From Euzebya pacifica (GTDB taxonomy: Bacteria; Actinomycetota; Nitriliruptoria; Euzebyales; Euzebyaceae), in NCBI RefSeq assembly GCF_003344865.1, contig NZ_CP031165.1, positions 5,027,910 to 5,091,909 of the forward strand: a stretch of 64,000 nt of DNA, given 5' to 3'. The translations under genes and the position numbers were made by a program. The notes under the pieces were generated by a model that worked only from the letters and a program-made list of their open reading frames with translations, was not told the DNA's origin and did not search any database. Shown piece after piece: positions 16,753-36,581 of the stretch (position 1 is the first letter of the stretch; every line of letters begins with the position of its first letter).

Positions 16753-16920
16753 AGGTTCCTCCTGGCGCGTGGGCGCAACCCCCTCAGGGCTGCATGTCTG
16801 GGCGGCGACGACGAGTTCCCCGCTCGTCGATCGAGGTCACCCTAGGTCATGCTCTCCGTCTTCCGGAGCTCCCGTCATCGTTTCGTTCCCGGCGCTCGTG
16901 GCGTCGGGACCCGCCGGCTA

Positions 16921-16926
16921 TAGCCT
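16921..16926 (+). promoter_or_regulatory. -10 element of a likely leaderless fbiC promoter
   Basis: TAGCCT eight bases before the fbiC ATG, with no Shine-Dalgarno between them. Identical to the arrangement at cofE and the ROK repressor. Confidence 0.5.
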
Positions 16927-16934
16927 TGTCGCCC

Positions 16935-19529
16935 ATGACACAGACCGACTCTGGTCACCTGTCCACCGCCGACGCAACGCCTGTCACGCCCGACCCCGTG
17001 AACGCCCACGCGATGCGCCGCGCCCTTGCCCGCGCCGACGCGGGCAAGCAGCTGAACGCCGACGAGGCCGCCGTGCTGATCCGCGCCCGTGGCGAGGACC
17101 TCCAGCGGCTGATGGCGCTGGCCGCCCGTGTTCGCGACCAGGCCTTCGGCGACCGCATCACCTACAGCCGCAAGGTGTTCATCCCCCTCACCCACCTGTG
17201 CCGCGACACCTGTGGCTACTGCACGTTCGCATGGCCGCCAAAGGGCGACATCCCCGCGTTCATGTCCCTCGACCAGGTCGTGGAGGTGGCACGACAGGGC
17301 GCCGCTGCCGGCTGCAAGGAGGCGCTGTTCACCCTCGGCGACCAGCCGGAGGAGCGCTATCCCGCCGCCCGCCAGTGGCTTGACGAACGTGGGTACGACT
17401 CGACCCTCGCCTACCTGCGTGCGGCGGCGATCCACGTGATCGAGGAGACGGGGCTCATCCCCCACCTCAACCCGGGCGTGATGTCGTGGACTGACCTCGC
17501 GACCCTCAAGCCGGTGTCGGGCTCCATGGGGATCATGATGGAGTCGACCTCCGACCGGCTGCACGAGAAGGGCATGCCGCACCACAACTGCCCGGACAAG
17601 GTGCCGGCGGTGCGCCTGCAGGTGCTGGAGGACGCGGGCAAGCAGTCGGTGCCGTTCACCTCCGGCATCCTGATCGGCATCGGCGAGACCCCCGAGGAAC
17701 GGGCCGACACCCTCCTCGCGATGGCGTCATCGGCCCGTCGGTACGGTCACCTCCAGGAGGTGATCGTGCAGAACTTCCGGGCCAAGCCCGATACCGCGAT
17801 GCGCGACCACCCCGAACCGGACCGCGACGACCTGCTGGCCACCGTCGCCACCGCCCGGTTGGTCCTGCCCACCCGCGTCCACCTGCAGGCCCCGCCGAAC
17901 CTGTCCCCCGAGGACGTCGAGGTCATCGTCGGCGCCGGCATCGACGACTGGGGAGGGGTGTCGCCGGTCACCCCCGACCACGTCAACCCCGAGGCACCCT
18001 GGCCCCACCTGGACGAGCTGACGGCCCGCACCGCCGCGGCGGGCAAGGAGCTGACCGAGCGCCTGTGCGCCTATCCCGAGTGGGTCCGCCGGCCCGACCC
18101 GTGGCTGGCCGGGCAGATGCGTCGCCCGATCCAGGCGCTGGCCACCGACGAGGGGCTGGCCCGTCCCGACACCGCCCCGCAGCCGCAGCCGTGGCAGGCC
18201 CCCGACATGCTCGAGGCGCAGGGCGGCGACGACCGCTGGACGTCCGCAGCGGCCGGCGACGGCGTCACCGGCTGGAGCCGCGGCGAGGGCGAGCTGCGCA
18301 CCGACGCCGACGACGTCTACGGCGACACCGGCCTGATCGCCGCCGAGTCGCTGGCCCGCCGGCCCGTCCGCGAGCGGCTGACCGGTGACGTGGCCGGCAT
18401 CCTGCGTCGTGCGGTGGACGGCACCCCGCCCACCGAGGAGGAGGCGCTGGTCCTGTTCGGCGCCGAGGGCCCGGACCTGACGGCGGTCACCGAGGCCGCC
18501 GACGAGGTACGCCGTGCCCGCGTCGGCGACACCGTCACCTACGTCGTCAACCGCAACATCAACTTCACCAACGTCTGCTACGTCGGCTGCCGGTTCTGCG
18601 CCTTCGCCCAGCGACGCGACGACCCCGACGCCTACACCCTGTCCCTCGACGAGGTCGCTGACCGGGCGGAGGAGGCCTGGGCGTTCGGTGCCACGGAGGT
18701 GTGCATGCAGGGCGGCATCCACCCCGACCTGCCGACCGACCACTACGAGCACCTGCTGCGGGCCGTGAAGGCCCGCGTGCCGGACATGCACATCCACGCG
18801 TTCTCCCCCATGGAAGTCGTGACCGGCGCCACCCGGGCCGGCATCAGCGTCAAGGAGTTCCTGGGCCGGGCGAAGGCCGCGGGCCTGGACACCATTCCGG
18901 GCACTGCCGCGGAGATCCTCGACGACGACGTCCGCTGGGTGCTGACCAAGGGCAAGCTGCCGACCGCCGCGTGGGTCGACGTCATGCGCAACGCCCACGC
19001 GCTGGGGATCCCGTCGACGTCGACGATGATGTTCGGCCATGTCGACCAGCCCCACCACTGGGCCGGACACCTGCACCTGCTCCGCCAGCTGCAGGTCGAC
19101 AGCCGCGAGGCCGGCAACCCCGCACGCTTCACCGAGTTCGTGCCGTTGCCGTTCGTGCACGCCCAGTCGCCGATCTACCTGGCCGGCGTCGCCCGTCCGG
19201 GCCCGTCGTGGGAGGACACCCTCAAGGTCCACGCGATCGCCCGCCTGGTCCTGCAGGGCGAGATCGACAACATCCAGCTGAGCTGGGTGAAGCTCGGCGT
19301 CGAGCGGACCACCGAGCTGCTTGACGCCGGCGTCAACGACCTCGGCGGCACGCTGATGGAGGAGACCATCTCGCGCATGGCCGGATCCGACCACGGTGTC
19401 CGCAAGGACCCGGAGGACCTGCGTGCCATAGCCGCAGCTGCCGGTCGTCCGGTCGCCGAACGGTCCACCGACTACCGCCGGAAGGAGCCGGCCGGGATCC
19501 GATACCGGATCTCGCCCGACGCTGCCTGA
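16935..19529 (+). CDS. fbiC: bifunctional 7,8-didemethyl-8-hydroxy-5-deazariboflavin (Fo) synthase, CofGH fusion
   Basis: An 864-residue fused radical-SAM enzyme making Fo, the F420 chromophore, from tyrosine and the ribityl-diaminouracil flavin precursor. The N-terminal CofG half (to ~390) has the cluster motif [10 protein letters not shown] near 93; the C-terminal CofH half (~480-864) has [10 protein letters not shown] near 550. Both CX3CX2C sets are intact. Length equals that of mycobacterial FbiC (~856). ATG at 16935 follows a TAGCCT box. It is followed one base after its stop by an MFS gene, so the two may be cotranscribed. Confidence 0.97.
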
Positions 19530-20805: not shown

Positions 20806-22014
20806 TCAGACGACGGTGACCGTGCCGGACATGCCACCGTGGATGGTGCAGTAGTACTCGTAGTCCCCGGGCTCGAGGTCAGCGACGCCGATGACGGACG
20901 CCATGCCGCCGGAGGACGCGAACTCCGAGCGGAACAGGGGCCGACGGTTGGCGTCGGTCTCCCGCGACTGGATGTTGTGGTCGAGCGTGTCGCCGTTGAC
21001 CAGCATCAGCCCCTGGCCCTCGGGGACCACGTTGATGTTCGGCACGAAGACCAGCGAGCCCGCTGGCGCCGTGACGACGGTCTCGACCAGCGGGGTGGTC
21101 GGCTCGTCGGTGGACGACGGCGGGTAGTGCACGCCATCGTGCACCCAGGCCACGGCGTTGACGAAGCGGGCCTGCCAGTCGGCACGGTCGTAGGTGTCGT
21201 CGTAGTGGCCGAGGTTGGTGTACCAGACACGTCCGGTGCCGTGGCCGTCGGCGGTCTTGACCCACTCGACGGGCTGGTCGTCGTCGTAGCTGCTGATGAC
21301 CGGGCCGAGGGAGGGCGGGTTGCCGAGCCCGTAGGTGTCGGTCTCGTCGAGGCTCAGGAGCACCCGCACGTCCTGGGTGCCACGCGGGTTGACCTGCCAC
21401 TTGTAGTACTCCTCGCGGAGCGGGAAGGAGTCGCCCTCGACATCGGCGTTGATCGGGTGGCTGGCGTTCTCGACCTGCACCGTCGCCTCGTCCAGCTCGT
21501 CGACCGGCGCGACGACGAAGGTGTTGCCCGTGTGGGGGTGGCTGTCGAACGCCGCCCCGACCATGGTCTGGTAGAAGTCCCACTCGTAGTTGGTGTCGGC
21601 GGCCGCGTGGATCCCCATGAACCCGCCGCCGTCGCGAACCCACTGCTCGAACATCGTCTTCTGCGCGTCGGTGAACGGCGTCTCGCCGGTCGTGTTGGCG
21701 AACAGCACGATGTCGGTCTCCGCCAGCGTCTCGGCGGTGAAGTCGGCCACGTCCTCCGTCGCCGTCACGGTGAAGGCCCCGGTCTCTGCGGCCAGCCCCG
21801 TGATGACGGCGACGGAGTGCTCGATGGACCCGTGGCGGAACCCCTCGGTGCCGGAGTACATCAGGATGTGCGGGATCTCCGGTTCCCCCTCCGGCGGGAC
21901 GGTCTCGTCGGCCGTCGCCGGCAGGGCAACGACGCTGGCCAGCAGGACCGCGAGGAATCCGGCGAGGACGCGCAGCCTGGCGGCGGGGAGGATGGTTCCG
22001 GGGATGGTCGGCAT
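20806..22014 (-). CDS. secreted ThuA-like domain protein fused to a cupredoxin
   Basis: A 402-residue exported protein; start ATG at 22014 gives a classic signal peptide (~1-31, ending ALPATADE). Residues ~42-275 are a ThuA (trehalose-utilisation, glutamine-amidotransferase-like) domain with HILMYSGTEGFRHGSIEH, the GGGFMGIHAAADT loop and RVWYTNLGHYDDTY. Residues ~310-402 are a plastocyanin-like domain whose copper ligands are all present: His in DTLDHNIQ and Cys/His/Met in YYCTIHGGMSG. The fusion links sugar processing to copper electron transfer outside the cell. Divergent from the ebo-like operon over 212 bases containing a T-rich element. ThuA family chemistry is only partly known; here it is inferred to act on oxidised sugars. 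Confidence 0.85.
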   Translation of the reverse strand: MPTIPGTILPAARLRVLAGFLAVLLASVVALPATADETVPPEGEPEIPHILMYSGTEGFRHGSIEHSVAVITGLAAETGAFTVTATEDVADFTAETLAETDIVLFANTTGETPFTDAQKTMFEQWVRDGGGFMGIHAAADTNYEWDFYQTMVGAAFDSHPHTGNTFVVAPVDELDEATVQVENASHPINADVEGDSFPLREEYYKWQVNPRGTQDVRVLLSLDETDTYGLGNPPSLGPVISSYDDDQPVEWVKTADGHGTGRVWYTNLGHYDDTYDRADWQARFVNAVAWVHDGVHYPPSSTDEPTTPLVETVVTAPAGSLVFVPNINVVPEGQGLMLVNGDTLDHNIQSRETDANRRPLFRSEFASSGGMASVIGVADLEPGDYEYYCTIHGGMSGTVTVV

Positions 22015-22123
22015 GTCGGCTCCGGCATGATCGGCTCGTGCGGCGGTTCGGCGAATCTTCGTGAGGGACCGCCTCTGCCCTTGTTTTCGCCGCTGGGGAC
22101 GCGAGTTCCTGCTGACCCTCCAC

Positions 22124-22147
22124 ATTTTTGTTGCGAGGTCATACATT
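22124..22147. promoter_or_regulatory. T-rich repeated element in the promoter space of the ebo-like operon
   Basis: ATTTTTGTTGCGAGG (22124-22138) stands out as AT-rich in a GC-rich intergenic region and is followed by a -10-like TACATT (22142-22147). Similar T-rich TGTTG elements occur before the esterase, PQQ dehydrogenase, DUF1080 and isomerase genes. Probably an operator of the divergent ThuA and ebo transcripts; the binding protein is unknown. Nothing else is recognisable between 22015 and 22226 apart from a second T-rich spot at 22081-22090. Confidence 0.45.
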
Positions 22148-22226: not shown

Positions 22227-23420
22227 ATGGACGCATCTCCCGTCAACAACCCGCGCTGGGGTCTCTGGCTGCTGGGCGCCAGGGGGTCCGTCGCCACGAC
22301 GATGACCGTCGGCTGGGCGGCGATGGTGGCCAACCTCGCCGGACCCGAGGGCATGGTCACCCAGCTGTCGGCTTTCGACGGTGTCGGCCTGCCGGGGTTG
22401 TCCGACCTGGTCATCGGCGGCTGCGACATCGGCCAGGTCCCGCTGGTCAAGCGCGCCGAACAGCTCGAGACCGCCGGGGTCGTGCCGCGGGGCATCGCCA
22501 AGCGCGTGGCCGACGACCTCGCGACGGTGGACGCTCGGTTGACCGGCGGGGTCAGCGCACAGGACGTGGCCGCGCACCCGGCGGAGGCGCTCGCCCGGCT
22601 GCAGGCCGACCTGGCCGCGTTCCGCAGCGACCACGACCTGGACCATGTGGTGGTCGTCAACGTCGCCTCCACCGAACCGCCGATCGAACCCCACGACAGC
22701 CACAGCGACGTCGACGTCCTCCTCGCCGCGCTCGACGCCGACCAGCCCGTCCTCTCGCCCGCCCCTCTGATGGCGGTGGCCGCCCTCACCTCCGGGGCCG
22801 CGTTCGTCGACTTCACCCCCTCCAGCGCCACCGTGATCCCGGCGATCCAGCAGCTCGCCGAACGCCACGGACTGCCTCTGGCCGGCCGTGACGGCAAGAC
22901 CGGCGAGACCCTGCTCAAGACCGCGCTGGCACCCATGTTCGCCGACCGGGCGCTGAAGGTCCGGTCGTGGTCGGGCATGAACCTGCTCGGTGGCGGTGAC
23001 GGGCAGACGCTGGCCGATCCCGTCCACGCCCGCTCGAAGCTGGAGTCCAAGGCCGCGCCGCTGCAGGCCATCCTCGGCTACCAGCCCGACGGGCCCGTGC
23101 GCATCGACCACGTCGCCGACCTCGGCGACTGGAAGACCGCGTGGGACCTGATCACCTTCGAGGGGTTCCTCGGCACCCGCATGCAGCTGCAGTTCACCTG
23201 GCAGGGCTGCGACTCGGCGCTGGCCGCCCCGCTCGTCCTGGACCTGGCCCGGCTGGTGGCGCTGGCCATGGCCGCCGGTGAGGCCGGCCCGCTGCCGGCC
23301 CTCGCGTACTTCTTCAAGGACCCCGTCGGCAGCAGCCAGCACCGCCTGGCCGAGCAGTTCACCGACCTGATCGCCTGGACCCGGACGACCGCCGCGACCA
23401 CGGGCACGACCGCCCCGTGA
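22227..23420 (+). CDS. inositol-3-phosphate synthase-family cyclase, first gene of the ebo-like operon
   Basis: A 397-residue member of the myo-inositol-phosphate synthase family, which cyclises glucose-6-phosphate with transient NAD oxidation. Seen: an N-terminal Rossmann loop LLGARGSVATT near 14, VVVVNVASTEPP near 138, a FVDFTPSSA segment, then GRDGKTGETLLKTALAP and WSGMNLLGGGDG (the conserved active-site Lys/Asn-rich region), and LITFEGFLGTRMQLQF. ATG at 22227 with aaagg upstream. The downstream gene overlaps by four bases. In characterised ebo clusters a dehydroquinate-synthase-like cyclase (EboD) is present; none is seen here, so this enzyme may supply an equivalent cyclitol. Substrate is inferred. 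Confidence 0.88.
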   Translation: MDASPVNNPRWGLWLLGARGSVATTMTVGWAAMVANLAGPEGMVTQLSAFDGVGLPGLSDLVIGGCDIGQVPLVKRAEQLETAGVVPRGIAKRVADDLATVDARLTGGVSAQDVAAHPAEALARLQADLAAFRSDHDLDHVVVVNVASTEPPIEPHDSHSDVDVLLAALDADQPVLSPAPLMAVAALTSGAAFVDFTPSSATVIPAIQQLAERHGLPLAGRDGKTGETLLKTALAPMFADRALKVRSWSGMNLLGGGDGQTLADPVHARSKLESKAAPLQAILGYQPDGPVRIDHVADLGDWKTAWDLITFEGFLGTRMQLQFTWQGCDSALAAPLVLDLARLVALAMAAGEAGPLPALAYFFKDPVGSSQHRLAEQFTDLIAWTRTTAATTGTTAP

Positions 23421-24307
23421 GCCTGCCGACCGCCGACACCCTCGCCGAGCTCGTCCGGCTGCCTGCTGTCCTGTCGGTGCCCGGGGACGCCTGGACCGGC
23501 GCCGCATCGACGGGCAACCGGCGGGGCTGGGCGATGCCGGCCGCATCGGCGCTGATCTACCTGGGCGGCATGGCCCTCAACGACTGGGCCGACCGCGAGC
23601 TGGACGCCGAGGAGCGACCCGAACGCCCGATCCCCTCCGGCCGCATCAGCCCGACCGCGGCCCTCGCCGTCGGGGCCGGCATGGTCGCCGGGGGCGTGGG
23701 CGTGGCCGGCGCGATCGGTGGCCGGGCGGGGCTGCGCATCGCCGTGCCGCTGGCCGCCTCGGTCTGGACCTACGACGTCGTGGCCAAGGACACCCCTGCG
23801 GGCCCGGCCATCATGGCGTTGTGCCGCGCGCTGGACGTGCTGCTCGGCGCGGCCGGCGGTGACGTCACGAGGGCCCTGCCCGCCGCGGCGTTGGTCGGCA
23901 CCCACACGCTGACGGTGACGACGGTCAGCCAGCACGAGGTGCACGGCGCATCCGTCGACGTGCCCCTGACCGCGCTGCGACGGACCGCCGCGACGGCGTT
24001 GGGCCTGCTCGCCCTGGGACTGCCTGCCCACGAGGAGGAGGGGCGGGGCGCCGCTGGCCTGCGCCGCCTGGCGACCGCCGGCGCAGCCGCGAGCTACCTG
24101 GCCATCGTCGGGGGCGGGTACAAGGCCGCCGTCGCGGCCGACGGCGACGCGGGCGCGGTCCGCCAGTCCGTCGGCACCGGCGTCATGGGGGTCATCCCGC
24201 TGCAGTCGGGGCTGCTCGCCTCGACGGGGTCGTGGCTGCGCGCCGCCATCACTGCCAGCGCCGTGCCCGTGGGCCGGCACCTGCGCAGGAAGCGAGCGGT
24301 GACGTGA
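23417..24307 (+). CDS. eboC: EboC-like UbiA-family prenyltransferase
   Basis: A 296-residue membrane protein of the UbiA superfamily. The first Asp-rich motif NDWADRELDAEERPERPIPS (near 54) is a textbook NDxxDxxxD followed by the RPxPSG substrate loop. About seven to nine hydrophobic helices follow. Start GTG at 23417 overlaps the upstream stop by four bases. UbiA enzymes attach isoprenoid chains to aromatic or polar acceptors; in ebo operons EboC is the predicted prenyltransferase. A plausible acceptor here is the cyclitol made by the first gene (inference). Confidence 0.9.
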   Translation: MSLPTADTLAELVRLPAVLSVPGDAWTGAASTGNRRGWAMPAASALIYLGGMALNDWADRELDAEERPERPIPSGRISPTAALAVGAGMVAGGVGVAGAIGGRAGLRIAVPLAASVWTYDVVAKDTPAGPAIMALCRALDVLLGAAGGDVTRALPAAALVGTHTLTVTTVSQHEVHGASVDVPLTALRRTAATALGLLALGLPAHEEEGRGAAGLRRLATAGAAASYLAIVGGGYKAAVAADGDAGAVRQSVGTGVMGVIPLQSGLLASTGSWLRAAITASAVPVGRHLRRKRAVT

Positions 24308-25179
24308 CCGGCCTGTCCTTCGCCTACGGCAGCAACGGGCTGGGTGACCACCGGCTGGCCGACGCGTGCGCGTTCCTGGCCGACGAGGGCTACGACGGCA
24401 TCGCCCTGACGCTGGACCACCAGCACCTCGACCCGTTCGGTCCCCACCTCAACCGCCGCGTGGACGAGGTGCGTCGGTTGCTGGACGACCACGCCCTGTC
24501 CGTCGTCGTCGAGACGGGCGGCCGCTTCGTGCTGGACCCGCGCAACAAGCACGAACCCACGCTGGTCTCCCCTGAGGACGGGGACCGGCGGGTGGACTTC
24601 TACCGCCGCGCCGTCGACATCTGCGTGCGGCTGGGCTCGCCCGTGCTGCACCTCTGGTCGGGGGTCGACCGGGCGGGCGACGCCGACGCCGCCTGGGGCC
24701 GGCTGACCGACGGGCTCGGGTCCGTCCTGGACGCCGCCGCCGAGGCAGGCATCGTCGTCGGGCTGGAGCCCGAACCCGGCATGGTCGTGGACACCATCGC
24801 AGCGTGGGAGCGGTTGTTGGACCAGCTGTCCCACCCGGCGCTGGCGATGACGCTGGACATCGGCCACTGCCAGTGCCTTGAGGACGCCCCCATCGCCGAC
24901 TGCATCCAGCGGGTCGCCGACCACCTGGTGCACGTGCAGATCGAGGACATGGTGCGTGGCGTGCACGAACACCTGCCGTTCGGTGACGGCGAGATCGACT
25001 TCCCGCCCGCCATGGCCGCGCTGCAGGACATCGGTTACGACGGCCTCGTGTCGGTGGAGCTGACCCGGCACGGACACACCGCCCACACGATGGTGCCCGA
25101 GGCGATCCGCTTCCTGCGTGCGGCGACGCCGACCGTGACATCGACCCCTGACCAGACCAACGGGAGGGTTCCTGCGTGA
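24304..25179 (+). CDS. TIM-barrel sugar phosphate isomerase/epimerase of the ebo-like operon
   Basis: A 291-residue xylose-isomerase-like (AP endonuclease family 2 fold) protein. Conserved metal residues appear in GLEPEPGMVVDT near 158 (Glu), LDIGHCQC near 187 (Asp/His), HVQIEDMVRGVHEHLPFGDGEIDF near 213 and VELTRHGH near the end. GTG at 24304 overlaps the eboC stop by four bases, and its own stop overlaps the eboA start. It probably isomerises a sugar or cyclitol intermediate of the pathway. It is distinct from the longer EboE TIM-barrel protein downstream. Confidence 0.86.
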   Translation: MTGLSFAYGSNGLGDHRLADACAFLADEGYDGIALTLDHQHLDPFGPHLNRRVDEVRRLLDDHALSVVVETGGRFVLDPRNKHEPTLVSPEDGDRRVDFYRRAVDICVRLGSPVLHLWSGVDRAGDADAAWGRLTDGLGSVLDAAAEAGIVVGLEPEPGMVVDTIAAWERLLDQLSHPALAMTLDIGHCQCLEDAPIADCIQRVADHLVHVQIEDMVRGVHEHLPFGDGEIDFPPAMAALQDIGYDGLVSVELTRHGHTAHTMVPEAIRFLRAATPTVTSTPDQTNGRVPA

Positions 25180-25934
25180 CCACCGACGACCATCGCTGGA
25201 CCGACGACATCGACTCGCGGCTGTCGGCCGTGCTCGACGCCGACGCCTCTGGCTGGCTCGGTGACGCCCGCGTGGCCGTCGCCGAGTCGCCCGCCACCAT
25301 CCGTGCCCGGTTCCCCGCTGTGTCGCGCAAGGTCGGGCGTGGCCCGCTGGACCCCGCGGCCGACCCCGACGACCCGTTCGTGGCGACCGTCGACGACGGC
25401 GCACGGGCGCTGCTGATCGCGTCCCTGCCGGCCGCCGACCGGCCCGTCGAGCTGCCCGAGCTGTACCGCCACGGCGACACCCGCGAGAAGCGCGGTGCCC
25501 TGCGGTCCCTCGACCTGCTGGCCGCCGAACCCGGCGGGCTGGACGGCCCCATGCGCCCGGTCGCCCGTGACCTGGTCGACGACGCCATGCGGACCAACGA
25601 CACCCGCTTGGTGGCCGCGGCCCTCGGCACCGCCGGGGTGGCCGTGCTGGACGACGAGGCCCTTGCCCAGGCCGTCCTGAAGTGCGTCTTCGTCGGCGTC
25701 GACATCGACCGCATCCCCGGCCTGCACGACCGGGTCACCCCCGAGCTGTCGCGCATGATGGCGGACTTCGTGCACGAACGGATCGCCGCCGGCCGTGACG
25801 TCCCCGCCCAGGTGTGGCCCGTCATCGACGCCCACCCTCCGACCGACCGGCTCGCCGCCATCGAGGCCGAGCTCGACCAAGCCGAGGCCCGCCGCGCCGA
25901 TGCCGCCCGTCGTGCCCTCGCCCTGCGGGGCTGA
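25176..25934 (+). CDS. eboA: EboA domain protein
   Basis: A 252-residue soluble, mostly alpha-helical protein. The EboA family pattern is clear: ELYRHGDTREKRGALRSLDL near 87, then DDAMRTND, QAVLKCVFVGVDIDRIPGL near 167, and RMMADFVHERIAAGR near 195. GTG at 25176 overlaps the upstream stop (GTGA). EboA has no assigned biochemical activity; in cyanobacteria the ebo genes are needed to move scytonemin monomers to the periplasm, and in Pseudomonas a related cluster deters nematode grazing. It is the most diagnostic gene for calling this an ebo-type operon. A 60-base gap separates it from eboB. Confidence 0.93.
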   Translation: MTTDDHRWTDDIDSRLSAVLDADASGWLGDARVAVAESPATIRARFPAVSRKVGRGPLDPAADPDDPFVATVDDGARALLIASLPAADRPVELPELYRHGDTREKRGALRSLDLLAAEPGGLDGPMRPVARDLVDDAMRTNDTRLVAAALGTAGVAVLDDEALAQAVLKCVFVGVDIDRIPGLHDRVTPELSRMMADFVHERIAAGRDVPAQVWPVIDAHPPTDRLAAIEAELDQAEARRADAARRALALRG

Positions 25935-25994
25935 CCCACGCCACGAGCCACCCCTCCACTCCTCCACCCCACTGCTGACGAACGGACGCGACCG

Positions 25995-26852
25995 ATGCGC
26001 ATCTTCGACCCCCACATCCACATGACGTCCCGGACCACCGACGACTACGAGGCGATGGCCGACGCGGGCGTCACCGCGCTTGTCGAGCCGGCGTTCTGGC
26101 TGGGGCAGCCGCGCACCAACGTCGGCAGCTTCGTGGACTACTTCGCCTCCCTCGTGGGCTGGGAGCCGTTCCGCGCCGCACAGTTCGGCATCGCCCACCA
26201 CTGCACCATCGCGCTGAACCCCAAGGAGGCCAACGACACGGGCCTTGCCAAGGACGTCCTGGAGGTGCTGCCCCGCTACCTGGCCAAGGACCGCGTGGTC
26301 GCCGTCGGCGAGGTCGGCTACGACTCGATGACGCCGGCCGAGGACGAGGTGTTCGCCGCCCAGATCGCCCTGGCGCTGGAGCACGAGCTGCCGCTGATGG
26401 TCCACACGCCCCACCGCGACAAGCTCGAGGGCACCAAGCGGTCGCTGGACCTGCTGCGCGAGCAGGGGTTCCCGCCCGAGATGACGATCATCGACCACAA
26501 CAACGAGCTGACCGTCGAGCTCCTGGCCGACACGGGCGTGTGGATGGCCTTCTCGATCTACCCCGACACCAAGGTCGACGAGCACCGCATGGTCAGCATC
26601 CTCCAGCAGTACGGCACCGAACGGATGCTGGTCAACTCCGCCGCCGACTGGGGTCGTTCGGACCCCCTGAAGGTGAAGAAGACCGCCGACGCGATGCTGG
26701 CCGCCGGGTTCGACCAGGCTGACGTCGACACCGTCGTGTGGGACAACCCGGTTGCGGTCTACGGCCAGTCCGGCCGCCTCGAGCTCGACGGCGGCCCGGC
26801 CGACCCCAACGCGTTGTTCGAGGGATCCTCCATCAAGCGCGGCGGCAGCTGA
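25995..26852 (+). CDS. eboB: EboB-like TatD family metal-dependent hydrolase
   Basis: A 285-residue amidohydrolase-fold protein of the TatD family. Metal-binding residues are visible as FDPHIHM (residues 4-10), the Glu of AVGEVGYDSM near 100, LMVHTPHRDK near 134 (His), TIIDHNNEL near 160 (His) and VNSAADWGRSD near 215 (Asp). Start ATG at 25995. A divergent group of TatD used in ebo operons; typical TatD proteins are nucleases, but the ebo member probably hydrolyses a small-molecule or phosphoester intermediate (inference). Separated from eboE by only 3 bases. Confidence 0.9.
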   Translation: MRIFDPHIHMTSRTTDDYEAMADAGVTALVEPAFWLGQPRTNVGSFVDYFASLVGWEPFRAAQFGIAHHCTIALNPKEANDTGLAKDVLEVLPRYLAKDRVVAVGEVGYDSMTPAEDEVFAAQIALALEHELPLMVHTPHRDKLEGTKRSLDLLREQGFPPEMTIIDHNNELTVELLADTGVWMAFSIYPDTKVDEHRMVSILQQYGTERMLVNSAADWGRSDPLKVKKTADAMLAAGFDQADVDTVVWDNPVAVYGQSGRLELDGGPADPNALFEGSSIKRGGS

Positions 26853-26855
26853 CCC

Positions 26856-28025
26856 GTGCGGTTCCGCCATCCCGACGGCACGACGGTCCACCTCGCCTAC
26901 TGCTCCAACGTGCACCCGGCCGAGGACGTCGACGGGGTCCTCGCACAGCTCGACACCTACGCCCGCCCCATCCGTGAGCGGCTGGGGCGCGATCGGCTGG
27001 GCATCGGCCTGTGGCTGGCCGACGATGCCGCGCTGGCGCTGGACACCGACCCGTCGATGCTGGAGGACCTGCGGGTGCGCCTCGCGACGACGGGCTGCGA
27101 GGTCGTCACCCTCAACGGGTTCCCCTACGCCGGCTTCCACGACGAGGTCGTCAAGCGGAAGGTGTACCGGCCCGACTGGACCGAGCCGGCCCGCCGCGAG
27201 CACACCCTGCGGCTGGCCCGGCTGCTGACCCGCCTGCTGCCCGACGACGTGGAGGTCGGGACGATCTCGACCCTGCCGCTGGGGTGGCGCGAGGGCTTCG
27301 ACGCCGCCCGCACCCGCGCGGCCGTGGACAACATGGCCGGCCTCGCCGAGGACCTGGCGGCGCTGGCCGACGACACCGGACGACGCGTCGCCCTGGCCGT
27401 CGAACCCGAACCCGGCTGCCGGGTGGAGACCACCACCCAGCTGGCCGAGGTGCTGGGCGACGTCGCCGGGCCACACCTGGGTGCGTGCGTCGACCTGTGC
27501 CACCTTGCGGTGCAGTTCGAGGACGGTCCCACGGCCGTCGCCGGGTTGGGCGCCGCCGGGGTGCCGATCCACAAGGCGCAGGTGTCGGCCGGGCTCCGTG
27601 CCGAGCATCCGGGTGACCCGGCGGTGCGTGCCGCGCTGGCCGCCCACGCCGACTCGCCGTTCCTGCACCAGACCCGCGAGCGGTCCGGTGGGGCGGTGCG
27701 CGGCGTGGACGACCTGCCCGAGGCCCTGGCCGGTGGGCTGCCCGGCGAGGAGGAGTGGCGCGTGCACGTGCACCTGCCCCTGCACCACAGCGACGAGGGC
27801 ACCACCCGTCCGGAGCTCGAGGCGTCCCTGGCCGCGCTGGTCGGCGGCCCGACCGCGGTGACCGCCCACCTGGAGCTGGAGACCTACACCTGGGGGGTGC
27901 TGCCCGAGGGCCGCCGACCCGCCGACGCTGCCGACCCGGTCGACGGGCTCGTCACCGGCATCGCCGCCGAGCTGTCCTGGGCCGCCGACCACCTGACCTC
28001 CCTCGGCCTGACCGAGCTGCCCTGA
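26856..28025 (+). CDS. eboE: EboE metabolite traffic protein (TIM-barrel)
   Basis: A 389-residue xylose-isomerase-like protein of the EboE family: YCSNVHPAEDVDGVL near 15, LNGFPYAGFHDEVVKRKVY near 85, STLPLGWREGF near 127, VEPEPGCRVETT near 173 and CVDLCHLAVQFED near 203; the C-terminal half has HVHLPLHH near 308 and HLELETYTWGVLP. GTG at 26856. EboE is conserved with EboA-C in clusters linked to exporting prenylated or indolic metabolites, but its reaction is unknown. The stop codon lies inside a 14-bp triplicate repeat, so the C-terminal EL-P end arose next to a small tandem duplication. Confidence 0.92.
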   Translation: MRFRHPDGTTVHLAYCSNVHPAEDVDGVLAQLDTYARPIRERLGRDRLGIGLWLADDAALALDTDPSMLEDLRVRLATTGCEVVTLNGFPYAGFHDEVVKRKVYRPDWTEPARREHTLRLARLLTRLLPDDVEVGTISTLPLGWREGFDAARTRAAVDNMAGLAEDLAALADDTGRRVALAVEPEPGCRVETTTQLAEVLGDVAGPHLGACVDLCHLAVQFEDGPTAVAGLGAAGVPIHKAQVSAGLRAEHPGDPAVRAALAAHADSPFLHQTRERSGGAVRGVDDLPEALAGGLPGEEEWRVHVHLPLHHSDEGTTRPELEASLAALVGGPTAVTAHLELETYTWGVLPEGRRPADAADPVDGLVTGIAAELSWAADHLTSLGLTELP

Positions 28026-28049
28026 CCGCGCTGCCCTGACCGCGCTGCC
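28008..28049 (+). repeat. triplicate 14-bp tandem repeat spanning the eboE stop codon
   Basis: CTGACCGAGCTGCC followed by two identical copies of CTGACCGCGCTGCC. The first copy is coding (LTEL-P) and the eboE TGA (28023-28025) lies in copy two, so the outer copies are non-coding. Probably a replication-slippage duplication. Confidence 0.85.
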
Positions 28050-28050
28050 C

Positions 28051-28167
28051 CGACGCGTGTCGGGTAATCGGCCACCCGTCGCAACAACCCGACACGCCCG
28101 AGCCAACCGACCCACCCCAACCCCGACGCGTGTCGGGTAACGGGCCGCCCGTCGCAACAACCCGACA
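28051..28167. repeat. two copies of a 44-bp palindromic repeat between eboE and the phosphatase gene
   Basis: Copies at 28051-28094 and 28124-28167 differ at few positions and each folds. Copy one pairs GCGTGTCGGGT with ACCCGACACGC (11 bp, 21-base loop); copy two keeps an 8-bp stem and a CGGG/CCCG inner stem. They are separated by 29 bases. They could be a mobile palindromic element, an mRNA stabiliser or attenuator between operon genes. They contain no open frame of note. Confidence 0.75.
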
Positions 28168-28179
28168 AGGACCCTGCCA

Positions 28180-29571
28180 GTGACCGACCACGCCACCTCC
28201 CGCCGCCCCGTCGTCGTCATCAACGTCGTGGGGTTGACCCCGGCGCTCCTGGAGGAGATGCCGCGGCTGCGGGCCCTGGCCTCCACCGGGTTCACCGCCC
28301 CCATGGACGCCGTCCTGCCGGCCGTGACCTGCACCGCCCAGGCGTCGATGTTGACCGGCCTGACGCCGACCGACCACGGCATCGTCGGCAACGGCTGGTA
28401 CTTCCGCGACCTCGGCGAGGTGTTCCTCTGGCGGCAGCACAACAAGCTGGTCCAGGGCGAGAAGGTGTGGGACGCCGCCCGCGCGGTCGACCCCGACTAC
28501 ACCGTCGCCAACGTCTGCTGGTGGTACGCCATGGGCGCGCCCACGGACTGGACGGTGACCCCTCGCCCGATCTACTACGCCGACGGCAAGAAGGAAGCGG
28601 ACTGCTACACCCGTCCGCCGGGCCTTCGCGACGAGCTGACCGACAAGTTCGGCACCTTCCCGCTGTTCACCTACTGGGGGCCGACCGCCGCCCTCACCTC
28701 CTCACGCTGGATCGCCCGGGCCGCCGCGCACGTCTTCGACACCAAGCAGCCCGACCTGACGCTGGTGTACCTGCCGCACCTCGACTACGACCTGCAGCGG
28801 TTCGGGCCCGACAGCCCCCAGGCAACAGCGGCGGCGCTGGCGATCGACGAGGTGGCCGGTGACCTGGCGGAGGGGGCGATGGCGCGCGGCGCCACGGTCC
28901 TCGTGGTCAGCGAGTACGGCATCACCCCGGCCAGCCGCCCTGTCGACATCAACCGTGCGCTGCGCGAGGAGGGGCTGCTGGAGGTCTACACCCAGGACGG
29001 CATGGAGTACCTCGACCCGTGGGTGTCGCGTGCCTTCGCGGTGGCCGACCACCAGATCGCCCACGTCTACCTCGACGACGCCGCAGACGTCGACGCCGTC
29101 CGCACGCTGCTGGAGGGGCTCGACGGCGTCGACCGGGTGCTGGATGCCGACGGCAAGCGCGAGATGGGCCTGGACCACGACCGCGCCGGCGACCTGGTCG
29201 TCATCGCCCAGCCCGACGCGTGGTTCACCTACTACTACTGGACCGACGACGAGCGGGCGCCGGACTTCGCGAAGATGGTGGAGATCCACCGCAAGCCCGG
29301 CTACGACCCGGCCGAGCTGTTCTTCGACCCCGAGGACCGGGCCGCCAAGGTCAAGGCGGGCGTGGCGCTGGCCCGCAAGAAGGCCGGCCTGCGCTACAAG
29401 ATGCAGGTCGTCCCGCTGGACCCCTCACCGGTGTCGGGTTCGCACGGCCGCCTGCCCGATGACCCCGATCACGGCCCGGTCCTGATCTGCAGCGACCCGA
29501 CCCTCACCCGGGACGCGTGGGCCCTGACCGACGTGAAGGACCTCATCCTCCGCGCCGGCGGGTTGACCTGA
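28180..29571 (+). CDS. alkaline-phosphatase superfamily pyrophosphatase/phosphodiesterase (EboF-like)
   Basis: A 463-residue member of the type I phosphodiesterase/nucleotide pyrophosphatase family. The nucleophile Thr lies in PAVTCTAQASMLTGLTPTDHG near 46-66; metal ligands follow in YLPHLDYDLQRFG near 199 and VVSEYGITP near 242. GTG at 28180. No signal peptide, so cytoplasmic unless associated. It follows eboE after a 154-base gap with palindromic repeats, same strand, and corresponds to the phosphatase gene (EboF) of described ebo clusters. It would hydrolyse a phosphate or nucleotide ester of the product or intermediate (inference). Confidence 0.88.
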   Translation: MTDHATSRRPVVVINVVGLTPALLEEMPRLRALASTGFTAPMDAVLPAVTCTAQASMLTGLTPTDHGIVGNGWYFRDLGEVFLWRQHNKLVQGEKVWDAARAVDPDYTVANVCWWYAMGAPTDWTVTPRPIYYADGKKEADCYTRPPGLRDELTDKFGTFPLFTYWGPTAALTSSRWIARAAAHVFDTKQPDLTLVYLPHLDYDLQRFGPDSPQATAAALAIDEVAGDLAEGAMARGATVLVVSEYGITPASRPVDINRALREEGLLEVYTQDGMEYLDPWVSRAFAVADHQIAHVYLDDAADVDAVRTLLEGLDGVDRVLDADGKREMGLDHDRAGDLVVIAQPDAWFTYYYWTDDERAPDFAKMVEIHRKPGYDPAELFFDPEDRAAKVKAGVALARKKAGLRYKMQVVPLDPSPVSGSHGRLPDDPDHGPVLICSDPTLTRDAWALTDVKDLILRAGGLT

Positions 29572-33084: not shown

Positions 33085-34830
33085 ATGAGAAGAGCCGCGT
33101 TCGTCGCGCTCGTCGCGATCGCGATGGTCCTACCACTGACGGGGGTGTCGCAGGCCCAGCAGCTGGGCATCGACCCCGCCGTCGAACGGGAGGTCCTGTT
33201 CAACCAGCTGATCACCCCGACCGCGCTCGAGGTCGCCCCCGACGGGCGTGCCGTCGTCGTCAGTCGCGAGGGACAGATCACCGTCTGGGAGCAGGACGGC
33301 TCCACCACCCGGGCGGCCTTCCTGCCCGTCGACGCCTACGACCGCCAGGGCGGTCAGTTCGACGAATCGGCCTGCCCACGGGGCAACGAGTGCCCCGCTG
33401 GCTACAACCTGGCCGAGGGCGGCATCCACGGCATCCTGCTGGCACCCGACTTCATGACCTCCGGCGAGCTGTACCTCTACTACACGCCGGTCGACTCCCT
33501 CGGTGAGGACATCTGGCCGCCGAAGATGCCCAACGCGCGTCCGCACTGCGACGCCTCCGCCGGCAACGGCTGCCCCTCCTCGGGCAACGACGAGGGCAAG
33601 TTCCGCCTGTCGCGCTTCACCATGGACCTCGACACCAACATCATCGACCTCGAGTCCGAGGTCGAGCTGTTCGAGAACCCCGCCGAGTGGTTCTACTGCT
33701 GCCACTACGGCGGCGACCTCGAGTGGAAGAACGACGGCACGCTGCTGATGACGACGGGGGACGACACGACGTCGGACCACTCGGGCGGCTACTCCCCGCA
33801 CGACCAGCGTGCGGACTGGACGTTCAACTCCGCGGCGCTGACCAGCCAGAACCTGGCCGACCGCCGCGGCAAGGTGCTGCGCATCGACGTCGAGGAGCTC
33901 GAGTCCGGCCTGGACGGCCCGCTCGGCGACGGCGTGCCCGGCGACCGCCCGGGCATCGACCCCAACCCGTTCGCCGACGACCCCGACGCCGACCCCTACG
34001 TCTACGCGCTCGGGTTCCGCTCCAACTACCGGTTTGCCTACAACCCGTCCACCGACCACCTCTACGTCGGCACGGTCGGACCCGACGCCCGCAACCCCAA
34101 CCCGACCCGTGGCCCCGCCGCCCACGACGAGATCGAGGTCGTCCCGCCGGGCGGTGGCACCAACCACGGCTGGCCGTACTGCATCGCCAACAACCTGCCG
34201 TACAACCGCTACGACTTCGCCACCGGCACCGCCGGCGAACCGTTCAGCTGCGCCGGCATGACCCCGGCGACGATCTACTACACCTACGCGCCGAGCAACA
34301 CGAGCCCGTTCGTGCAGATGGGGCAGGGCTCCAACACCGCGGTGGGCGGCACGGCGTACTTCCGGCCCGAGACCGGCGCGCTGCGGCTGCCCGAGACCTA
34401 CGACAACCAGCTGCTGTGGATGGATCACGGTCGCGGCCAGATGTGGCGGTCCCCGATCAACGCCGACGGGTCGCTGGACGGCTCGCCCACCTCGTTGCTG
34501 CCCGTCGCCATGGGCGGCATCTACCTGGTCAACACCCTCAGCAACCCGATCGACGCGACCGTCGGCCCCGACGGTGCCGTCTACGTGGTCGAGGGCAACG
34601 GCTTCTGGAACTCCATCGCCGGCCGGCTGACCCGCATCACCTGTGCAGGCTGCACACCCGACGCGGCTGACTACGGCGGCGACGTGGAGGTCCTGGACCG
34701 CACCGCCGAGACCCTGGTCGCCAGCGTGGACGGCGGGATCGTCGACCGGCTGCCCGGCGCCGGCCTGCTCGTCGTGCTGACCACCACGCTGGCGCTGGTC
34801 GCCTGGCGTCGACGGGGGGACGTGGTGTGA
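33085..34830 (+). CDS. secreted PQQ-dependent sugar dehydrogenase (glucose/sorbosone dehydrogenase family), copy 1
   Basis: A 581-residue exported quinoprotein. Signal peptide ~1-24 (ending SQAQQ). The six-bladed GDH/sorbosone dehydrogenase propeller spans ~30-510: LEVAPDGRAVVVSREGQITV, EGGIHGILLAPDF, YCCHYGGDLEW, LMTTGDDTTSDHS, DRRGKVLRIDV, GFRSNYRFAYNP and VVPPGGGTNHGWPYCI. The C-terminus is LPGAG, a hydrophobic helix and WRRRG, a surface-anchor-like tail. ATG at 33085. Oxidises a sugar hydroxyl or hemiacetal outside the cell and passes electrons on, possibly to the cupredoxins encoded nearby. Its stop overlaps the start of a close paralogue, an obvious tandem duplication. Confidence 0.88.
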   Translation: MRRAAFVALVAIAMVLPLTGVSQAQQLGIDPAVEREVLFNQLITPTALEVAPDGRAVVVSREGQITVWEQDGSTTRAAFLPVDAYDRQGGQFDESACPRGNECPAGYNLAEGGIHGILLAPDFMTSGELYLYYTPVDSLGEDIWPPKMPNARPHCDASAGNGCPSSGNDEGKFRLSRFTMDLDTNIIDLESEVELFENPAEWFYCCHYGGDLEWKNDGTLLMTTGDDTTSDHSGGYSPHDQRADWTFNSAALTSQNLADRRGKVLRIDVEELESGLDGPLGDGVPGDRPGIDPNPFADDPDADPYVYALGFRSNYRFAYNPSTDHLYVGTVGPDARNPNPTRGPAAHDEIEVVPPGGGTNHGWPYCIANNLPYNRYDFATGTAGEPFSCAGMTPATIYYTYAPSNTSPFVQMGQGSNTAVGGTAYFRPETGALRLPETYDNQLLWMDHGRGQMWRSPINADGSLDGSPTSLLPVAMGGIYLVNTLSNPIDATVGPDGAVYVVEGNGFWNSIAGRLTRITCAGCTPDAADYGGDVEVLDRTAETLVASVDGGIVDRLPGAGLLVVLTTTLALVAWRRRGDVV

Positions 34831-36581
34831 CGTCGACCCGAACCACCCTGCTCGTCCTCGTCGCCGTCATGGCGATGGTCGTCCCGCTGGGCACCGCTGC
34901 CAGCGCCCAGTCCCTGCTGCCCGACCCGTCGGTGGACAAGGAGGTGCTGTACGGCGAGCTGATCTCGCCGACGGCGCTGGAGGTCGCCCCCGACGGCCGG
35001 GTCATCGTCACGAGCCGCGAGGGGCAGGTGACCGTCTGGGAGCAGGACGGCACCGTGACCCGTGCGGCGTTCCTGCCCGTCGACGCCTACGACCGCCAGG
35101 GCGGGCAGTTCGACGTCGAGAACTGCCCACGGGGCGAGGAGTGCCCGGCCGGATTCAACCTTGCCGAGGGCGGCATCCACGGGATCCTGCTGGCCCCCGA
35201 CTTCATGACCTCCGGCGAGCTCTACCTGTACTACACGGTGGCGAACTCCCTCGGCATGGAGCCGTGGCCGCCGAAGATGCCGAACGCGCGTCCGTTCTGC
35301 GACGACACCGCCGGCGACGGCTGCCCCGCCTCGGGCAACGACGAGGGCATCTGGCGCCTGTCCCGCTTCACGATGGACCTCGACGCCAACACCATCGACC
35401 TGTCGACTGAGGTGCCGCTCTTCGAGAACCCGGCCGAGTGGTTCTACTGCTGCCACTACGGCGGCGACATGGAGTGGCGCAACGACGGCACCCTGCTGCT
35501 GTCCACCGGTGACGACACGACGTCGGACCACTCCAGCGGCTACTCCCCCCACGACCAGCGTGCGGACTGGACCTTCAACTCCGCGGCCCTGACCAGCGCC
35601 AACCCGGCCGACCGACGCGGCAAGGTGCTGCGCATCGACATCGAGGAGCTCGAGAGCGGTCTGGACGGTCCGCTGGGCGACGGTGTCCCCGGCGACCGTC
35701 CCGGCATCGACCCCAACCCGTTCCTCGACGACCCCGACGCCGACCCCTACGTCTACGCCTACGGGTTCCGGTCGCTGTACCGGTTCGGGTACAGCCCCGA
35801 GACCGACCACGTGTACGCCGGCAACGTGGGCCCGGACGCCCGCAACCCCGACCCGACCCGAGGGCCCGCAGCCCACGACGAGATCGAGGTCGTGCCCCCG
35901 GGCGGTGGCACCAACCACGGCTGGCCGTTCTGCATCGCCGACAACGTCCCCTACAACGAGTACGACTTCGCGACGGGCGCGGCCGGCGAGCCGTTCAGCT
36001 GCGCCGGGATGACCCCCGCAGCGGTCTGGTACACCTACGTCCCGTCGACGACCAGCCCGTACGTGCAGATGGGCGGCGGCGGCAACACGGCCCTGGGTGG
36101 CGTGGCGTACCACCGTCCCGACGACGGTGCCCTGCGCCTGCCCGAGGCCTACGACGACCACTTCCTGTGGATGGAGTACAGCCGCGGGGCGGTGTGGCAC
36201 ATGCCGATCGCCGACGACGGGTCGCTGGACAACAGCCCGGCGTCGCTGAACGCCACCGCCAACGGCATCCCCTTCGTGCTGCCGGGACTCAGCAACCCGA
36301 TCGACATGGCGACCGGCCCCGATGGTGCGGTGTACGTCGTGGAGAGCAACGGCGGTTGGAACTCCATCGCCGGCCGCCTGACGCGCCTGCAGTGCGCTGG
36401 TTGCACCCCAGACGCCGCCGACTACGGCGACGGTGTCGAGATCCTCGACCGCCCCGCGGTCGCGTCGGTCGCCGGGGTCGACGGCGGACTGGCATCCGTG
36501 CTGCCGACGGCCGGACTCCTCGGGTTGGTGCTCGTGGCGTTGGGCGGACTCGGCGTCCGTCGGCGCCGCCGCGTGATCTGA
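34827..36581 (+). CDS. secreted PQQ-dependent sugar dehydrogenase, copy 2
   Basis: A 584-residue paralogue of the preceding protein, alignable end to end with most residues identical: DAYDRQGGQFDVENCPRGEE, EGGIHGILLAPDFM, EWFYCCHYGGDMEW, STGDDTTSDHSSGYSPHDQR, DRRGKVLRIDIEELESGLDG and VVPPGGGTNHGWPFCI. Signal peptide ~1-27 (ending TAASAQ). The tail is LPTAG, a hydrophobic helix and RRRRR. GTG at 34827 overlaps the upstream TGA by four bases, so the copies are translated as a pair. They differ in loops, suggesting separate substrate or partner preference. A strong hairpin follows 21 bases after the stop. Confidence 0.88.
   Translation: MTSTRTTLLVLVAVMAMVVPLGTAASAQSLLPDPSVDKEVLYGELISPTALEVAPDGRVIVTSREGQVTVWEQDGTVTRAAFLPVDAYDRQGGQFDVENCPRGEECPAGFNLAEGGIHGILLAPDFMTSGELYLYYTVANSLGMEPWPPKMPNARPFCDDTAGDGCPASGNDEGIWRLSRFTMDLDANTIDLSTEVPLFENPAEWFYCCHYGGDMEWRNDGTLLLSTGDDTTSDHSSGYSPHDQRADWTFNSAALTSANPADRRGKVLRIDIEELESGLDGPLGDGVPGDRPGIDPNPFLDDPDADPYVYAYGFRSLYRFGYSPETDHVYAGNVGPDARNPDPTRGPAAHDEIEVVPPGGGTNHGWPFCIADNVPYNEYDFATGAAGEPFSCAGMTPAAVWYTYVPSTTSPYVQMGGGGNTALGGVAYHRPDDGALRLPEAYDDHFLWMEYSRGAVWHMPIADDGSLDNSPASLNATANGIPFVLPGLSNPIDMATGPDGAVYVVESNGGWNSIAGRLTRLQCAGCTPDAADYGDGVEILDRPAVASVAGVDGGLASVLPTAGLLGLVLVALGGLGVRRRRRVI

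Follow-up and report, generated by a model that had tools for sequence, protein, structure and literature searches.

An ebo-type operon of Euzebya pacifica opened by an inositol-phosphate-synthase-type cyclase in place of EboD

Classical ebo clusters comprise the genes eboABCDEF (PMC5133447), and in Nostoc all five of the five ebo genes tested were required for passage of the scytonemin monomer to the periplasm (PMC6282210). The ebo clusters described from flavobacteria contain EboD together with UbiA enzymes, the Ubi-297 prenyltransferases, which transfer farnesyl groups to quinolines in vitro (PMC9235831). Since 2016, the nature of the ebo product has been a puzzle, and the substrate of its cyclase has so far only been guessed. 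Aminocyclitol antibiotic pathways offer a comparison, as two unrelated NAD-dependent cyclases, 2-deoxy-scyllo-inosose (DOI) synthase and myo-inositol phosphate synthase (MIPS), act there on glucose-6-phosphate and feed comparable pathways; they differ from ebo in that their products are aminocyclitols and their downstream genes are not shared. Here we describe an ebo-type operon at positions 22227-29571 of a window of 64,000 nucleotides from Euzebya pacifica (NZ_CP031165.1, positions 5,027,910 to 5,091,909). Like the classical cluster, it contains an EboA domain, EboB, EboE, EboF and an EboC-like UbiA enzyme. Unlike the classical cluster, it has no EboD and carries a MIPS-type cyclase, an extra PF01261 isomerase (hereafter ISO) and a prenyltransferase of the SCO3242 family that falls under the EboC cut-off.

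The seven plus-strand open reading frames run in the order MIPS, EboC-like prenyltransferase, TIM-barrel isomerase ISO, EboA, EboB, EboE and EboF (Table 1), with spacings of -4, -4, -4, +60, +3 and +154 bases, and genes 1-4 are joined by three consecutive 4-base overlaps (GTGA). The kinds of gene and the overlaps reported by the first-pass annotation of this DNA were confirmed by the reading frames and by Pfam and NCBIfam matches. The longest reading frame of ISO begins at 24232, and its likely start is the GTG at 24304. No PDB relative of EboE was found by sequence search. The same annotation had seen no EboD at the locus and proposed its functional replacement by an unrelated cyclase. The absence was borne out for the cluster, and the sole DHQ_synthase match in the 6.37-Mb genome was aroB, which is flanked by aroK and a pepP-like gene and carries the motif NYGHT; an EboD hidden elsewhere in the genome was thereby ruled out. 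Nor is the operon cyclase the only inositol-synthase copy: a second MIPS-family gene (G000:C1:5768518), adjoining a PadR-like regulator, is the ordinary actinobacterial ino1. Both results left the replacement proposal standing.

The operon MIPS has the full architecture of its family (PF07994 and PF01658) and scored 34 bits, against a cut-off of 638, with mycothiol_INO1 (TIGR03450), the NCBIfam model of the actinobacterial inositol synthase for mycothiol and phosphatidylinositol. Its best PDB match was Ino1 of Archaeoglobus fulgidus (1u1i, 217 bits), with which it has full-length homology and four catalytic lysines in common, in a different operon context. Lys271, Lys275, Lys303 and Lys364 align with K274, K278, K306 and K367 of that enzyme, whose roles have been described (PMC11348189), and are invariant among relatives. 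Because of this match to the catalytic lysines, the operon MIPS likely cyclises glucose-6-phosphate. The best PDB match of EboD was dehydroquinate synthase (DHQS; 155 bits), followed by EEVS (4p53, 117 bits) and DOI synthase (DOIS; 103 bits). A parallel with the aristeromycin pathway, whose cyclitol-phosphate synthase Art22 was among the PDB matches, was set aside, as the similarity was only distant and we found no paper settling it.

The presence of MIPS-type and EboD genes was compared across Planctomycetota, where ebo genes are mostly scattered, as noted previously (PMC5133447), so that gene adjacency cannot drive an exclusion between the two cyclases. The sample contained 119 genomes, 78 with EboE and 41 without. 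In raw counts, the EboE-positive genomes had MIPS only (49), a second DHQS only (23), both (4) or neither (2) (Fisher p = 1e-13, ignoring kinship), and a second DHQS occurred in only 1 of the 41 EboE-negative genomes. The copies were then typed by reading the genes. Nearly all second DHQS copies carried the EboD motif DFGHW.AH or a close form and scored at least 363 bits with the EboD profile, AroB copies carried N.GH..(G/A)H, and none of the 24 MIPS-type genomes whose DHQS was readable had the motif DFGHW.AH. The MIPS genes scored >300 bits with the ebo profile, except for six at 54-75 bits, two of which were in genomes counted as having both cyclases. These two genomes (G274 and G334) were reassigned, their MIPS belonging to a different family (71-74 bits vs >430), as was G288, where the extra DHQS is AroB-like. 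After typing, MIPS only was found in 50 genomes, EboD only in 23, both in 1 and neither in 4 (Fisher p ~1e-14, ignoring kinship), a near-perfect mutual exclusion.

Two of the EboE-positive genomes with neither gene (G280 and G324) contained a third cyclase, whose best PDB match was DOIS (197 and 206 bits, vs at most 165 for DHQS) and which shares the DOIS motif EYGHT; in G280 it adjoins ISO. The other two (G365 and G380) lie on contigs of only 3.6 and 6.3 kb and were left unassigned. On the EboE tree, the cyclase label requires nine switches, six of them forced by strong branches, and among independent pairs drawn from all rows the cyclases were opposite in ~5.9 of 7, never in the same direction (p ~0.03). 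Functional replacement of EboD by MIPS is thus well supported, most strongly because the two unlinked genes exclude each other in Planctomycetota, where ISO also tracks MIPS; the minimum of nine switches and the presence of MIPS in all EboE-positive Actinomycetota sampled agree with it.

The first-pass proposal stood as far as the cyclase is concerned, but the replacement goes beyond the cyclase alone: ISO also belongs to it and is coupled to MIPS. By profile search, ISO was present in 66 of 72 MIPS genomes vs 6 of 47 others (p = 5e-19); among EboE-positive Planctomycetota, it accompanied MIPS in 47 of 50 genomes and the DOIS-like cyclase in 2 of 2, and was found in none of the 24 with EboD. 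Seven loci encode ISO and EboA as a single fused protein. The AlphaFold 2 model of ISO (predicted local distance difference test score, 94.8) gave Foldseek matches that included UlaE (L-xylulose-5-P 3-epimerase) and ketose 3-epimerases and pointed to no single function, and its conserved residues Glu155, Asp185, His188 and Glu252 resemble a metal site. None of the 14 genomes with two ISO genes had EboE; a rule that the second ISO replaces EboE fits these counts but was rejected, as the ISO subgroups do not map cleanly.

The prenyltransferase gene had been called EboC, which was correct in that it encodes an EboC-like UbiA prenyltransferase, but the protein scored only 120.6 bits with the EboC equivalog NF035940 (cut-off 250). 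Because it exceeds the cut-off of the SCO3242 family instead (Table 1), the operon 'EboC' represents a family sister to the original EboC. An Asp-rich motif, NDWADRELD, lies at residue 55. In trees, EboC sequences split by cyclase type with one exception, whereas EboE sequences do not, which suggests ring recognition by the prenyltransferase and a ring-independent step for EboE.

The MIPS-type ebo arrangement is widespread and not a local oddity. In a sample of 246 genomes across Actinomycetota, EboE was found in 11, and MIPS was in the cluster at 11 of the 12 EboE loci, covering all 11 genomes, mostly with the same gene order and in no case with EboD. A wider scan with the MIPS profile over 84,980 species, combined with hidden Markov model gene tables, recovered full clusters in ~14 named actinobacterial genera, including Thermomonospora, Actinomadura, Amycolatopsis, Catellatospora, Georgenia, Nocardiopsis and Saccharothrix. 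As the gene order is conserved across many genera, the arrangement of the operon is not due to chance. Streptomyces plasmids also carry the full seven-gene set, every gene of which has a RefSeq name. Outside this phylum, Rokubacteriota (L096) have the same seven genes in the same order, and Gemmatimonadota (L030, L038) have MIPS and ISO with EboG in place of EboA. A reduced set of MIPS, ISO, EboB and EboC, which lacks EboA and EboE and in most cases also includes EboF and a second ISO, was found in haloarchaea, Nitrospira, further proteobacteria and Planctomycetota. EboD was present and ISO absent in Azospirillum, Roseivivax, Deinococcus, Mycetohabitans and Aureibacter, and in a phylum sample centred on G249, EboD adjoined EboE at 4 of 4 EboE loci with no ISO nearby.

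Individual loci showed further variation. Genome G128 has a second ebo cluster (L017) with EboC, ISO, EboA, EboB, EboE and EboF and no adjacent MIPS. In the haloarchaeal loci L032, L033, L061 and L117, which have no EboA or EboE, MIPS and EboF are divergent from EboB, which is accompanied by ISO and UbiA where the locus is complete. The Streptomyces plasmid clusters L028 and L029 adjoin FAD monooxygenase and methyltransferase genes, and in L029 eboE alone adjoins type II polyketide synthase genes. In L409, L411, L412, L414 and L418, an ISO-type gene adjoins a MIPS gene of a more remote family (234-252 bits), with no other ebo genes nearby. Directly upstream of distant EboD-type clusters, a Pfam-less protein of ~600 aa is followed by a ferritin-like protein (L036, 3069-6087; L037, 1091-4151).

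The operon probably encodes a MIPS-type ebo pathway that would yield a prenyl-cyclitol for extracytoplasmic metabolite handling. Homology and catalytic residues suggest that the MIPS paralogue would convert glucose-6-phosphate to inositol phosphate, providing the carbocycle supplied by EboD in classical clusters. ISO, which travels with glucose-6-phosphate-type cyclases, would adjust the ring or its keto form, with EboA as its putative partner, and the membrane prenyltransferase (EboC/SCO3242) would add an isoprenyl chain; EboB (hydrolase), EboE (TIM barrel) and EboF (phosphodiesterase) may trim or remodel the product. In chemical terms, the product would be a C6 cyclitol carrying a prenyl group, which may act in metabolite export, as for the scytonemin monomer that ebo handles in Nostoc, or as a cofactor for secreted oxidases. 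More tentatively, ebo as a whole may be an ancient modular pathway, found across many bacterial phyla and in haloarchaea, that leads to a class of prenyl-cyclitols not yet described. Any of three cyclases could provide its ring (EboD, or else MIPS or a DOI-synthase-like enzyme, each of these two being coupled to ISO), and the product would serve extracytoplasmic oxidation or export, including secreted beta-propeller sugar dehydrogenases; we regard this broader picture as possible rather than probable.

Several points weigh against the prenyl-cyclitol pathway. We know of no enzyme activity or product for any ebo cyclase. One genome (G369) carries both cyclases, the sole such case after gene reading, and in a genome without EboE (G555, L415) EboD is directly beside an ISO2-type isomerase. 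Within Planctomycetota alone, kinship-corrected pairs were too few for significance (sign test, median p = 0.125). In the only in vitro assays of EboC-group enzymes, the acceptors prenylated were quinolines rather than cyclitols (PMC9235831). For classical EboD, the proposed substrate is the C7 sugar sedoheptulose-7-phosphate (PMC5133447); if so, the classical version would form a C7 ring and the MIPS version a C6 ring, so that the two routes need not share one product.

The genes around the operon bear on the role of its product. ThuA flanks 15 of 32 actinobacterial MIPS-type loci vs 0.24 expected from genome density (Poisson p = 3e-22), an estimate based solely on ThuA density that takes no account of sugar-gene clustering or of the shared ancestry of the loci. 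ThuA or glucose/sorbosone dehydrogenase (GSDH) flanks 21 of 32 loci, with neighbours that include secreted 3-keto-disaccharide hydrolase proteins, and 11 of 32 had no ThuA or GSDH match within the fetched flanks. This neighbourhood is compatible with export as well as with a cofactor for extracytoplasmic oxidative enzymes. A reading that accepts the same cyclase replacement takes the product of either ebo version to be a prenylated cyclitol derivative that works as a cofactor or electron carrier for such enzymes (e.g., GSDH here and ScyE in scytonemin synthesis), not as an export carrier. The ThuA and GSDH counts speak for it, a cofactor role was allowed for in the 2016 ebo paper, and ebo and scyE deletions in Nostoc accumulate the same scytonemin monomer, differing only in localisation (PMC6282210). 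However, the monomer is cytoplasmic in the ebo mutants and periplasmic in the scyE mutant, which favours transport, and the limits of the chance estimate and the 11 loci without a match count further against a cofactor, so that we consider it unlikely.

The same neighbours, whose functions lie in sugar oxidation, together with the resemblance of ISO to ketose and keto-glucoside epimerases, could instead mean that MIPS and ISO form a sugar- or inositol-catabolic module, such as one for 3-keto-glycoside metabolism with secreted ThuA and GSDH, that is merely co-operonic with the ebo genes. This is improbable, as MIPS is biosynthetic, its presence tracks EboD absence in Planctomycetota despite unlinked genes, and the gene set, prenyltransferase included, turns up again in archaea and in several phyla of bacteria. 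Shared ancestry of genomes, rather than functional replacement, might also produce the EboD/MIPS exclusion, and the clustering of cyclase labels on the EboE tree and the sign test within Planctomycetota are in its favour; set against the switches on strongly supported branches, the fact that ISO follows MIPS and the lack of EboD and MIPS alike in both EboE-positive genomes whose third cyclase was resolved, it appears very improbable. A general inositol supply with no step in the pathway is what the intact catalytic residues of a true MIPS homologue would equally allow, but the separate ino1, the low mycothiol_INO1 score and the position of MIPS as first, overlapping gene of the operon leave this explanation with next to no probability, and it was rejected.

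In a full-text literature search, with subscription papers outside its scope, no account of an ebo cluster of the MIPS type was found; the search returned the 2016, 2018 and 2022 ebo papers and Streptomyces coelicolor transcriptomes listing SCO3243 and SCO3242. These genes, for a myo-inositol phosphate synthase and a putative transferase, respectively, have consecutive locus numbers in the calcium-dependent antibiotic (CDA) region (PMC3610822); they are known here from annotation alone and are not described as an ebo variant in the literature searched. The Saccharomonospora loci in Figure 3 of PMC9235831 may be of the MIPS type. The MIPS version of ebo is thus apparently undescribed. With MIPS versions in haloarchaea, Nitrospira, Gemmatimonadota, Rokubacteriota and many Actinomycetota, ebo is far more widespread than in the EboD-based picture. 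That EboD trades places with MIPS and with a DOI-synthase-like enzyme provides independent evidence for a cyclitol ring as the product of the cyclase step and narrows the range of possible products of the ebo pathway. Since the MIPS reaction is well understood, inositol phosphate is a concrete starting compound to feed, label and trace, and since the MIPS version appears to be present in Streptomyces (plasmids by gene reading, S. coelicolor by annotation), the pathway is testable in a tractable host.

Table 1. Features of the operon, its neighbours and related loci (positions without a locus handle refer to the window)
Feature	Location	Strand	Evidence or remark
MIPS-type cyclase, 397 aa	22227..23420	+	PF07994 164 bits, PF01658 108 bits; in EboD's place
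EboC-like UbiA prenyltransferase, SCO3242 family	23417..24307	+	NF045897 321 bits, cut-off 260
ISO, metal-dependent sugar-phosphate isomerase/epimerase-type TIM barrel	24304..25179	+	PF01261
EboA-domain protein	25176..25934	+	NF035938 135 bits, cut-off 50
EboB, TatD-like metallohydrolase	25995..26852	+	PF01026 60.9 bits vs 27; 61% identity to Azospirillum EboB
EboE, TIM-barrel protein	26856..28025	+	NF035939 equivalog 386.9 bits, cut-off 250
EboF, type I phosphodiesterase/alkaline-phosphatase superfamily	28180..29571	+	PF01663 236.9 bits; 55% identity to Azospirillum EboF
ThuA and cupredoxin protein with apparent secretion signal	20806..22146	-	PF06283, PF00127; divergent neighbour, non-core
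Two tandem GSDH (beta-propeller) genes	33085..36581	+	PF07995; neighbours
DOI-synthase-like cyclase	L303 3767-4891 (G280); L311 3761-4891 (G324)		PDB match and EYGHT motif
ISO-EboA fusion	L082, L101, L105 (Catellatospora); L104, L113 (Amycolatopsis); L114 (Saccharothrix); L026		
Secreted ThuA/3-keto-disaccharide hydrolase/GSDH flanks	window; L018, L020-L023, L066, L074, L082, L089, L095		
Further loci with secreted ThuA/3-keto-disaccharide hydrolase/GSDH flanks	L101, L105, L106, L108, L114		

Upstream of the operon, the window also contains the gene of a bifunctional FO synthase, CofGH, of F420 biosynthesis (16794-19529, plus strand).

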